This document shows, piece after piece, positions 4,985-7,371 of a stretch of 20,569 nt of DNA. Source of the stretch: a virus; the IMG/VR virus record IMGVR_UViG_3300034283_000973, positions 1-20,569 of that record. One strand, 5' to 3'. The notes below the pieces were generated by a model. It worked only from the letters and a program-made list of their open reading frames with translations. It did no database searches and was not told where the DNA came from. Both the position numbers and the translations under genes were made by a program. Position 1 is the first letter of the stretch; each line of letters starts with the position of its first letter.

Positions 4985-5620
4985 CTATATCATAAGTATC
5001 AGTTGCTTACCTATCTCGTATGTATAGCGTGGCGGGATAGCCTCGACTAAGTCACCCCACAACATCCAATCAATTCCCATAGCTTCTCTCGCTTCCTCGA
5101 TTGACTTGGCAGTATGACCGCCTTTGGGAATCTCATCACGCATAGAACCATAGATACCTACTGGTTTACCTTGTGTCTTATGATCACATACCGAACCGAT
5201 TAGTTTTAAGTTGGACTCAAAGAGTCTATGTCTACGTACCTTCAATCCAAAAGATGAACCACAAAACCGTACTGGCTCAATCAATGGCGCTCCTGGTACG
5301 TTTTCTATTACGTATGGTTTGCCACTGGCTATAAGCCCCCCCCTAGTCTGAGGTATGAGGTCTACTTTATCAGTGCTCTTGCCCTGCGCTACTCGTAAAT
5401 GCTTAGTTGCTGAATGAGTTTGGCAAGGTGGACTAGCTGTTATGACATCAAAAGAACGCAAAAAGTCTAGGTCTTGCATAATTTCTAAGCAGTCTGCTTG
5501 TATAAAGGTATATGGATATCGCTTCTGCTTCTTAATATCAATACCAGTTACTTCAAAACCTGCGTCTGCATAACCCTTGCTTGCTCCCCCTGCCTTGCAG
5601 TAGAGATCAAGTAGTCTCAT
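4985..5620 (-). CDS. Compact C5 cytosine DNA methyltransferase
   Basis: 211 aa from ATG 5620. SAM-binding motif I is LDLYCKAGGASKGYADAGF (4-22), motif IV has the catalytic Cys66 in ASPPCQTHS, motif VI is ENVPG (106-110), motif VIII is VRRHRLFES (128-136), and EAIPPRYTYEIGKQL (193-207) is motif X. All chemistry motifs are present but there is very little sequence between VIII and X, so the target recognition domain is minimal; typical members exceed 300 aa. No partner restriction enzyme was seen, so the likely role is protecting phage DNA from host restriction. Last gene of the leftward operon; its start overlaps the upstream gene by 14 bases. Confidence 0.93.
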   Translation of the reverse strand: MRLLDLYCKAGGASKGYADAGFEVTGIDIKKQKRYPYTFIQADCLEIMQDLDFLRSFDVITASPPCQTHSATKHLRVAQGKSTDKVDLIPQTRGGLIASGKPYVIENVPGAPLIEPVRFCGSSFGLKVRRHRLFESNLKLIGSVCDHKTQGKPVGIYGSMRDEIPKGGHTAKSIEEAREAMGIDWMLWGDLVEAIPPRYTYEIGKQLILMI

Positions 5621-5972
5621 CAGTACCAGCCTCTTCTATTGTGGTGTGTGAGAGCGCGACACGCGCTTCCTCGATAGCGGTGTATTTCCCAGCAGCTATA
5701 TTCATAGCGTGGGTATAGCAAGAAGCGTAACGTTTATCTTCCAAGGCCATATCTTCAATCCCATTCTGCATCCAGTAATCTGAACGATTCAGCATAGTCT
5801 GACGGCCTACTTCAATCTCTTTCGCTATGCGCTCACGCCAATACCTTTCAAGGATATCCATAACATCTCTTGTCGAGAACGATACATAAATCTGTCCGTA
5901 ATACTCAAATCCACCTTGTAAATCTCTATAAGATTTAAGTAGGTTATAAATATCTGGTTCTTTATTATCCAT
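5607..5972 (-). CDS. Hypothetical phage protein
   Basis: 121 aa from ATG 5972, preceded by AAGGAG at ideal spacing, the best classical ribosome site nearby. It overlaps the HNH gene stop by 8 bases and the methyltransferase start by 14. The sequence is mainly helical and charged: DIYNLLKSYRDL, a segment with YGQIYVSFSTRDVMDILERYW, then ERIAKEIEVGRQTML. No catalytic motif, membrane segment or cysteine pair. Between an HNH endonuclease and a methyltransferase it could be an accessory to DNA handling, but nothing in the sequence shows it. Confidence 0.8.
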   Translation of the reverse strand: MDNKEPDIYNLLKSYRDLQGGFEYYGQIYVSFSTRDVMDILERYWRERIAKEIEVGRQTMLNRSDYWMQNGIEDMALEDKRYASCYTHAMNIAAGKYTAIEEARVALSHTTIEEAGTDETT

Positions 5973-6357
5973 TCCATCTCCTTAAATAGTCTTCTGCCTT
6001 CTCTTTCCATTCAGACTCTAGCACTCCAAGCCGAACGTTACACTGGCTACAAAGAAGCCCTCTTACACACTTGCCACAAGTCTTTTCGGTAGAGCAACAA
6101 GAATGGTTGTGATCTACGTGGAATCTACCTTTCCCGCCTGAGTCTAAAGAGCCACATACAGCGCAACCACCGCCTTGCTCTTCAAGCATACGGTCATAGT
6201 CTTCAAGTGTAATCTTGTACTTGTATTTAAGAGTTGCACTCTTCTGCTTCTCAGGATTAGAAGCATACTTAGCACGAGCAGCTTCCCTATCCTTTGCCCT
6301 GTATCTTTGCTTCTGCTCCTCAGTACGAGGGTGATCTTTAGGATTCTTATATGGCAT
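5965..6357 (-). CDS. HNH endonuclease, recombination endonuclease VII type
   Basis: 130 aa from ATG 6357, whose codon overlaps the TGA of the transglycosylase-like gene (TGATG); GGGTGG lies about six bases upstream. Basic helices fill residues 11-45. Then Cys65-X2-Cys68, FHVDHNH (79-85), GKCVRGLLCSQCN (95-107) with Cys103-X2-Cys106, and RLGVLES follow. This is the zinc-binding beta-beta-alpha fold of T4 endonuclease VII, which resolves branched DNA or nicks at termini. In actinophages HNH proteins often assist terminase, but this copy is among early leftward genes and far from terminase, so repair/resolution or host DNA attack are equally possible. Confidence 0.9.
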   Translation of the reverse strand: MPYKNPKDHPRTEEQKQRYRAKDREAARAKYASNPEKQKSATLKYKYKITLEDYDRMLEEQGGGCAVCGSLDSGGKGRFHVDHNHSCCSTEKTCGKCVRGLLCSQCNVRLGVLESEWKEKAEDYLRRWNG

Positions 6358-6634
6358 CAGTACCACCCGTGTCTGTCGTGCCATCGTAAAGCACTGCACG
6401 CAGATCCTCCAAAACGGTGTTCAATGTATCGTAGGCCGTGTAGGACTTGGATACGAGGGTCGCTACTGCGCTCTCTAAGGAGCTGAGCAATTCCATAAGC
6501 CGAGCTTCCTCGTTGATTCTTGGCAAGGTGGTCAAACCTGCTCTCACGGGTCCATAAGGTGACAAGGCACGTGACTTCTCTCGGCGTATATCCGAGAGCT
6601 TTACTATATTCCCTTGCGATTCGTTTGTTCTCAC
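6347..6634 (-). CDS. 95-aa ORF nested opposite-frame inside the transglycosylase-like gene
   Basis: GTG 6634 overlaps the stop of the 94-aa gene upstream (GTGA) and has GGAGGAG four bases before it; the ORF ends 11 bases inside the HNH gene. It shares almost its whole length with the transglycosylase-like ORF in another frame. The second half is convincingly protein-like: EEARLMELLSSLESAVATL then a helical YDTLNTVLEDLRAVL. An internal ATG at 6496 could give a 49-aa product of just this part. No cysteine or membrane segment; probably soluble and helical. Start signals argue for it, but only conservation could show whether both frames are used. Confidence 0.55.
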   Translation of the reverse strand: MRTNESQGNIVKLSDIRREKSRALSPYGPVRAGLTTLPRINEEARLMELLSSLESAVATLVSKSYTAYDTLNTVLEDLRAVLYDGTTDTGGTDAI

Positions 6635-6773
6635 GCTTCTCCTCCATTGTAGCCTTCGTTCTCTCCTTCATTACCGGCTTGGCCGGTAGGTGTAACGGTG
6701 GCAACGGTTCGTATATCCACGCCAATAGTATTACCATCAATATCAATCCACTTATGACCCTGAGCTTCGTCAA
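6357..6773 (-). CDS. Membrane-anchored lytic transglycosylase-like protein
   Basis: 138 aa. The first 22 residues (VISGLILMVILLAWIY) are a membrane helix or signal anchor, followed by a Pro-rich spacer. The catalytic part is VTLWTRESRFDHLAKN with Glu77, then SSAYGIAQLL (90-99) and RYIEHRFGG, closing WHDRHGWY. This matches the short goose-lysozyme/Slt-type transglycosylases of actinobacteria and their phages, which cleave peptidoglycan between MurNAc and GlcNAc. The annotated start is TTG 6773 with GGGAG at good spacing; ATG 6671 or 6647 would remove the membrane helix. It lies 143 bases inside the upstream gene and nearly wholly overlaps another ORF. Probable lysis function, or wall opening on entry. 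Confidence 0.82.
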   Translation of the reverse strand: MTKLRVISGLILMVILLAWIYEPLPPLHLPAKPVMKERTKATMEEKRENKRIAREYSKALGYTPREVTCLVTLWTRESRFDHLAKNQRGSSAYGIAQLLRERSSDPRIQVLHGLRYIEHRFGGSACSALRWHDRHGWY

Positions 6774-6915
6774 TCGCTTTCTCCCTCTCCAGTAAATCCT
6801 TGTAAGTATCTGGATATAGTTGTGCTAGTTTGACAAGCGCACGATCTCTCGCCCGTCTATAGTTACGCTGGCGTACGGCCATATTCTTTGCTGCTGCTAT
6901 CCTTCTCTCCCTCAT
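6631..6915 (-). CDS. Basic helical hypothetical protein of actinophage type
   Basis: 94 aa from ATG 6915, joined to the micropeptide gene upstream as ATGA and preceded by GAGAGG. Residues 1-35 are strongly basic and helical (VRQRNYRRARDRALVKLA), then YPDTYKDLLEREK and HKWIDIDGNT; the last 25 residues are Gly/Glu/Asn-rich. Basic helical stretch plus this Y-P-x-x-Y-x-x-L pattern recur in small actinophage proteins of unknown function; RNA or DNA binding is plausible. The C-terminal 47 codons overlap the start of the transglycosylase-like gene, and its stop forms GTGA with the nested ORF. Confidence 0.78.
   Translation of the reverse strand: MRERRIAAAKNMAVRQRNYRRARDRALVKLAQLYPDTYKDLLEREKAIDEAQGHKWIDIDGNTIGVDIRTVATVTPTGQAGNEGENEGYNGGEA
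6672..6688 (-). promoter_or_regulatory. Perfect 7-bp hairpin with triloop inside coding sequence
   Basis: TACCGGC, three bases, GCCGGTA form a perfect stem within the end of the 94-aa gene. On the reverse strand it ends directly before an ATG (6671) that is in frame with the transglycosylase-like ORF (its Met35). A stem at this point could pause ribosomes or control an internal start; it may also be a chance product of the CCGG-rich composition. Confidence 0.35.
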
Positions 6916-6983
6916 CCTCGCCCTCTCTTAATCATAAGGTAGCCTACCGCAAGGATAGCTGCCATTACTAGCCAGTAGGTCAT
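6912..6983 (-). CDS. 23-aa single-pass membrane micropeptide
   Basis: ATG 6983 overlaps the upstream stop as ATGA, and its own TGA overlaps the next start as ATGA, so it fills the gap exactly. The product begins MTYWLVMAAILAVGYLM and ends IKRGRG: one hydrophobic helix of about 17 residues with a basic cytoplasmic-type tail (positive-inside rule). It is far below the usual length of holins. Its place two genes upstream of the transglycosylase-like protein suggests a lysis or membrane accessory role, which is inference. Confidence 0.72.
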   Translation of the reverse strand: MTYWLVMAAILAVGYLMIKRGRG

Positions 6984-7222
6984 CTACTAGCCTCCCTGAC
7001 TATCGCCGTTATATCTAAGGGTTGACCTACCAGGTGAGCATCCTCTTCGTCGCTCTCCCACCCCGATACCAGAATTCTAGTGGCCGTTGGTGAACTGGCT
7101 ATCCACGCGAGAGCTTCTCTCTCGCTATTGCCTCCCCATTCAGCGTTACCGCCCTCATCCACTACCTCATAAAGCAGCACGAGGGCAGACTTAGGCGGGT
7201 GAAAGCTGATTACTTCTCCCAT
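6980..7222 (-). CDS. Hypothetical phage protein
   Basis: 80 aa from ATG 7222, which overlaps the previous stop as TAATG and has AGAGAG upstream; an upstream in-frame start at 7267 would be inside the preceding gene and is not preferred. The sequence starts MGEVISFHPPKSALVLLYEVVDEGG, continues SEREALAWIASSPTATRILVSGWES and ends in a strand-helix (DITAIVREASR). It looks like a small alpha/beta domain. I do not recognise the family. No metal site or membrane segment. Confidence 0.75.
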   Translation of the reverse strand: MGEVISFHPPKSALVLLYEVVDEGGNAEWGGNSEREALAWIASSPTATRILVSGWESDEEDAHLVGQPLDITAIVREASR

Positions 7223-7371
7223 TAGTAACTCTCTTTCTGTCCTGGTAAACACGATACGCAATAGCAATATAGCGGGTTACTTATATTCCCCTTACTATCT
7301 GCCCACACACTATCGTCTATATCTATCTCGTTATGGCATACATAACAGGGTATTATATCTAAGTTACTCAT
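7222..7371 (-). CDS. Small Cys-rich (zinc-ribbon-like) protein
   Basis: 49 aa from ATG 7371, just after GGAGGAGGGAG. Cysteines occur as CYVC near the N-terminus and as CYCVSC near residues 36-41, a two-knuckle set suited to one zinc ion. The middle (DSVWADSKGNIS) is a beta hairpin. The stop makes TAATG with the next gene and the start overlaps the upstream ORF by 8 bases. One of four Cys-rich mini-proteins in this operon; likely a binding module, target unknown. Confidence 0.75.
   Translation of the reverse strand: MSNLDIIPCYVCHNEIDIDDSVWADSKGNISNPLYCYCVSCLPGQKESY

Follow-up and report, generated by a model that had tools for sequence, protein, structure and literature searches.

The locus analyzed here is, as judged from sequence comparison, very probably a true dual-coding gene pair composed of an older gene for a lytic transglycosylase (TG) and a younger gene, g3, that lies in the +1 frame of TG. 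Both frames are conserved, as is the g3 start site. The window, by which we mean the whole stretch of DNA analyzed, is a 20,569-base IMG/VR virus record that encodes a WhiB-like factor, a sigma-70 region-4 protein, a DnaB-like helicase and a large terminase, a gene content that matches the one described for phages of freshwater Ca. Nanopelagicales (PMC10202952). The nearest TG-like enzymes in the phage collection were those of OX376641 (LanE43-AprF5) and OX376640 (LanE43-AprE7), which are two cultured Planktophila phages (PMC10202952). Given this gene content and these relatives, we infer an actinobacterial host for the window phage, and the hosts of this large freshwater virus group are probably actinobacteria.

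Layout of the locus

Direct reading of the sequence confirmed that three ORFs overlap in three different frames of the minus strand: g1 (6631..6915), which encodes a 94-aa basic protein and in the alignment has its tail over the TG N-terminus, TG (6357..6773), an LT_GEWL-like lytic transglycosylase frame of 138 aa with a TTG start, and g3 (6347..6634), which has 95 aa, a GTG start and the +1 frame relative to TG. The sequence-only reading had put the DNA read in two frames at about 275 bases, which is too low. The overlap of TG with g3 is 278 nt and that of g1 with TG is 143 nt and hence the entire 417-nt TG frame is read twice. The g1/g3 junction is GTGA, as had been described, with the GTG start of g3 overlapping the g1 stop, and the GGAGGAG reported ahead of the g3 start is present at 6639..6645 (minus strand), where this Shine-Dalgarno-like motif falls within the TG codons for MEEK. 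TG has a Shine-Dalgarno-like motif of its own, GGAGAGGGAG (6781..6790, minus strand), which lies within g1 codons and precedes the TTG or ATG start of TG in the window and in close relatives. The TGATG joint between TG and the next gene also stood, but the HNH label given to that gene did not, as its product matched endonuclease VII (PF02945, E 1.8e-18); this gene (5965..6357, minus strand) starts inside the 3' end of g3.

Start-stop overlaps of the form RTGA form a chain that runs from an ORF at 7267-6980 through a 23-aa hydrophobic peptide ORF (6912..6983, minus strand), which has ATGA joints to both the preceding gene and g1, to g1 and then g3. The small genes of 6912-7267 (minus strand) chained by ATGA overlaps thus include a peptide of 23 aa with a single helix. 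Downstream, the TG/g3 3' end was seen again at 5604-5690 (minus strand), where this second copy closes a 121-aa ORF (5607-5972) just before the start of a methyltransferase gene. Similar second copies were present 400-900 nt downstream of TG in other loci (L054, L153, L094/L221 and L271), and in one locus (L093) the methyltransferase gene directly follows TG/g3. The TG/g3 3' end may be a recombination joint for cassette swapping.

The enzyme and the g3 product

By sequence and by structure model TG is a lytic transglycosylase of the LT_GEWL/SLT family. In PHROGs its profile matched phrog_15428 and phrog_12661 (2.7e-13), and about half of the TG relatives matched Pfam SLT or Phage_lysozyme2; the Pfam scores of the window TG were below the gathering cut-offs. 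The structure model consists of a hydrophobic N-terminal helix followed by a helical domain and resembles phage LT_GEWL proteins, with LT_GEWL matches near 1e-4 in BFVD, and a Foldseek search of the PDB gave no significant match. The catalytic motif proposed for this frame was upheld, in that glutamate E77 lies in the family motif and is invariant in the 57 sequences aligned, as are C69 and C126. That these cysteines form a disulphide outside the membrane is a guess. Fold, motif and family suggest that the product of the older gene, a small enzyme anchored in the membrane, should cleave peptidoglycan outside it. A scan of the genome contigs with TG found no relative.

The earlier framing of the locus in terms of lysis was weakened by the genome setting, although its enzyme assignment held: TG lies amid early-region genes, and a different pair of proteins ends the late genes. 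In a near-complete relative (G001) these are a protein of 67 aa with a single helix and an M15-like protein of 150 aa, encoded at L301 19676-20000 and L302 1-328 (G001:C1:39676-40328). The 150-aa protein, whose His/Asp motifs are patterned as in M15 peptidases, falls in phrog_32486 (unknown function), was given no Pfam name and was present in 9 of 12 genomes spanning all three of the TG clades (A, B and C) described below. Position and motif make the holin-like 67-aa protein and the M15-motif protein the candidate main lysis pair. Given this separate pair in the late genes, TG is probably not the main endolysin but would be a second, early-region wall enzyme.

The window g3 had no homologue in Pfam, PHROGs, PDB sequences or a phage tblastn search, and the members of its family gave only scattered weak matches of a chance-like nature in the same searches. 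A fold search with the g3 model found nothing. On these comparisons g3 is a conserved orphan gene. The g3 structure model is essentially one long helix, which has limited meaning as the alignment is shaped by TG, and the g3 sequence contains neither a cysteine lipobox nor a transmembrane segment. The predicted product is most likely a small cytoplasmic helical protein of coiled-coil type. A spanin-like reading of g3 as a lysis partner was rejected on the lack of a lipobox and of a transmembrane segment and because TG is an enzyme. In five loci (L070, L071, L072, L076 and L078) the N-terminal half of g3 is completely different; their TG is similar in kind and the frame is open.

Dual coding could be real and g3 could be a partner or inhibitor of TG, the two proteins being kept in balance by translation from the same RNA. 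The two genes share their DNA and presumably their transcript and, among the genomes searched, g3 was found only over TG, but we consider this role unlikely given that Streptomyces phages and clades C and O have TG but no g3 and that g3 has no transmembrane segment whereas the predicted site of TG action is outside the membrane. For g3 we tentatively prefer an accessory function during the early phase of infection.

Conservation of the g3 frame and its start site

The +1 frame was open in 80/80 of the first related loci collected, in nearly all of which the start of g3 shares bases with the g1 stop, and in 59/59 of the non-redundant relatives of this first set. Among all loci with an intact TG, which are related and so are not independent counts, the frame was open in 161/161 loci of clade A, 70/72 of clade B (231/233 for A and B combined) and 0/44 of clade C. 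The two clade B exceptions have stops in the last few codons only. The stops expected per locus were 3.0 (A), 2.5 (B) and 3.1 (C), and those observed were 0, 0.03 and 3.95. Clade B is open despite TG proteins only about 50% identical to the window TG. Given the TG protein and phage codon usage, the chance of an open +1 frame is about 2.5% (2-4% per sequence), and hence the openness seen in 59/59 and 231/233 loci is not due to chance. A null made by permuting codons within each sequence was weak (median P 0.18), and thus the case for g3 draws instead on the codon-usage null, on the sister clade with the closed frame and on the classes of substitution. The outcome that the sequence-only reading had set against g3, an intact TG beside a 95-aa frame interrupted by stops, was confined to sister clades in which the g3 start site is missing too. 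In clade C, which includes the cultured phage F5 and has the same short enzyme at a similar GC content, most loci contain 2-6 stops; the start site is absent from 17/19 rows and the other two rows have stops after the site. Two of the three high-GC Streptomyces TG genes read have an open +1 frame, which we put down to GC content, and these genes were left out of the open-frame count.

A g3 start codon is present in every non-redundant row checked. The TG codon over the g3 start ends in T in 96/96 non-redundant sequences, although the residue encoded varies (R, N, S, G, Y, D or V), and where it is arginine the codon is CGT in 39/39 cases versus 135/920 for arginine elsewhere. In one exceptional locus (L165) this TG codon is AGA and a new ATGAGA is found slightly downstream. 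The start codons of g3 are exchanged among ATG, GTG and TTG. GGAGG precedes the g3 start in 41/59 clade A loci, with a weaker motif in the remainder, and in clade A the conserved MEEK codons of TG supply GGAGGAG. In clades A and B, the younger gene would then lie within TG in the +1 frame, with its ribosome-binding site and start codon inside the conserved KATMEEKRE stretch of TG. We infer that g3 is translated by its own initiation, probably helped in clade A by reinitiation at the g1 stop (RTGA).

Substitutions were classed by their effects in both frames using pairs above 85% identity, and the rate of TG-silent, g3-changing substitutions was taken relative to the doubly silent rate (dSN/dSS), doubly synonymous sites being few in the TG/g3 overlap. 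For g3 the ratio was 0.25 (0.18-0.34) in clade A and 0.37 (0.24-0.61) in clade B, and in the closed clade C, our control, it was 1.13 (0.77-4.71). Hence, the test of synonymous variation proposed from the sequence came out in favor of two coding frames, the open clades showing a deficit of about 3-4-fold in changes that are silent in TG but alter g3, and the closed clade showing none. For the other forward frame dSN/dSS was above 1 in both A and B. The dNN/dNS of g3 was 0.67 (0.50-0.90) in clade A and 1.19 (0.78-2.00), not below 1, in clade B, and thus by this measure g3 is less constrained as a protein in B. The TG dNN/dSN was 0.40 (A) and 0.41 (B). Third-position differences in TG were about threefold lower than those of non-overlapped g1 in the same pairs (0.14 versus 0.46), and windowed synonymous change at matched TG divergence was 0.26 in A, 0.24 in B and 0.38 in C. 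Conservation of g3 residues proves little alone, as the invariant positions coincide with the TG catalytic motifs. Synonymous suppression together with the open frames supports the true dual coding that had been proposed.

Constraints on RNA structure or on a regulatory element exist in viruses and could suppress synonymous variation without a second protein. This explanation is very improbable, since the pattern is specific to a frame (stop avoidance, dNN/dNS below 1 in A and the exchange of ATG, GTG and TTG) and the constraint runs through the whole domain. Marginally less credible still is that g3 is no gene and its open frame a by-product of TG amino acids and codon bias. The TG motifs WTRESRF and GIAQLL do force parts of g3, and the permutation null is higher than the 2-4% chance per sequence, but clade C has the same motifs and similar GC yet carries its stops, the synonymous suppression is frame-specific and the start codon of g3 is retained whichever of seven residues TG has there. 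That g1 and g3 are the only genes and TG an accidental frame is hardly credible, for although the g1/g3 RTGA joint resembles those of the preceding small ORFs and gene callers would prefer that layout, TG has transglycosylase family matches, a known fold and the invariant E77, stands without overlap in clade C and Streptomyces phages, and has a frame that, given the g3 protein, would hardly ever be open.

The 94-aa ORF g1 was upheld as a gene, its conserved part, RNYRRARDRAL, lying upstream of TG in the alignment. Its overlapping tail as a selected protein was rejected, since the tail over TG has a dNN/dNS of 0.91 (0.65-1.26) and so shows no amino-acid constraint. Changes to stops in the tail are rare in clade A. 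In clade B the g1 frame stops well upstream of the g3 start, and hence the coupling of g1 to g3 is a clade A feature. A tblastn search of phage records with g1 gave no match. In some loci other small ORFs replace g1; three (L035, L046 and L057) have a different short ORF in this slot joined to an open tail of the same kind, and in four (L034, L053, L058 and L067) the g1 C-terminal tail over TG is rich in lysine and arginine, unlike the others.

Origin of g3 and comparison with known overlaps

In the tree, good support was obtained for each of clades A, B and C. The best tree groups C with A, and A plus B as a single clade is not rejected (p-AU 0.36), so either g3 was gained once in A plus B or one gain was followed by loss in C. 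No g3 accompanies TG in clade C, in clade O or in the Streptomyces phages, and, as clade C shows, g3 is not needed for TG to exist. The clade C genomes searched contain no separate copy of g3; the weak g3 matches there are the TG domain read in the +1 frame, with two stop codons. TG has an old fold and g3 belongs to no known family and thus overprinting of TG is the likely direction. Most likely, g3 was born by overprinting inside TG. A related clade that has TG without g3 and includes cultured members should allow the steps by which an overprinted gene is born or lost to be traced.

Overprinting is known in phages. To our knowledge, the textbook cases of long same-strand phage overlaps involve small membrane or envelope proteins. 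What is unusual here is dual coding across the catalytic site of an enzyme at such depth, the active-site region itself carrying a second gene. We think it somewhat probable that an orphan gene overprints a complete enzyme frame, catalytic site included, draws its ribosome-binding site from conserved codons of the enzyme and has been kept across two clades at about 50% TG identity. We found no earlier report of the TG/g3 overlap in the open-access literature. Gene callers avoid long overlaps and, across hundreds of genomes of freshwater phages, are likely to omit either TG or g3.

The arrangement is like that of lambda Rz/Rz1, in which a second gene on the same strand has its own start in the +1 frame (PMC6139136), and embedded genes of the Rz1 type are often missed by gene callers (PMC6139136). 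However, Rz and Rz1 are partner envelope proteins that disrupt the outer membrane (PMC6139136), whereas here a wall-cutting enzyme is paired with a predicted soluble helical protein in hosts that probably lack an outer membrane; as to two-component spanins, g3 has no lipoprotein signal and TG is an enzyme. The phiX174 D/E pair is similar in that a new gene arose within an older one in a different frame (PMC8227390), but E is a hydrophobic lysis peptide of a small ssDNA phage (PMC8227390), whereas g3 lacks hydrophobic character and lies in an older gene that codes for an enzyme, in a tailed phage of some 40 kb. In Ms6 lysA/Lysin241, an inner start and ribosome-binding site likewise lie within an actinophage wall-hydrolase gene (PMC3111421), but the Ms6 inner start is in-frame and gives a shorter form of the same enzyme (PMC3111421), whereas g3 is in another frame. 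The Streptomyces phage Endor1 protein QMP84520.1 is of the same LT_GEWL/SLT family as TG by sequence and predicted fold and, unlike TG, is encoded by an ordinary gene with no overlapping gene annotated. The Planktophila phages LanE43AprE7 and LanE43AprF5 (PMC10202952) encode the same short anchored transglycosylase, 44% identical to TG, and in F5, a member of the closed clade C, the +1 frame has stops, there is no g3 start and g3 is found nowhere else in the genome.
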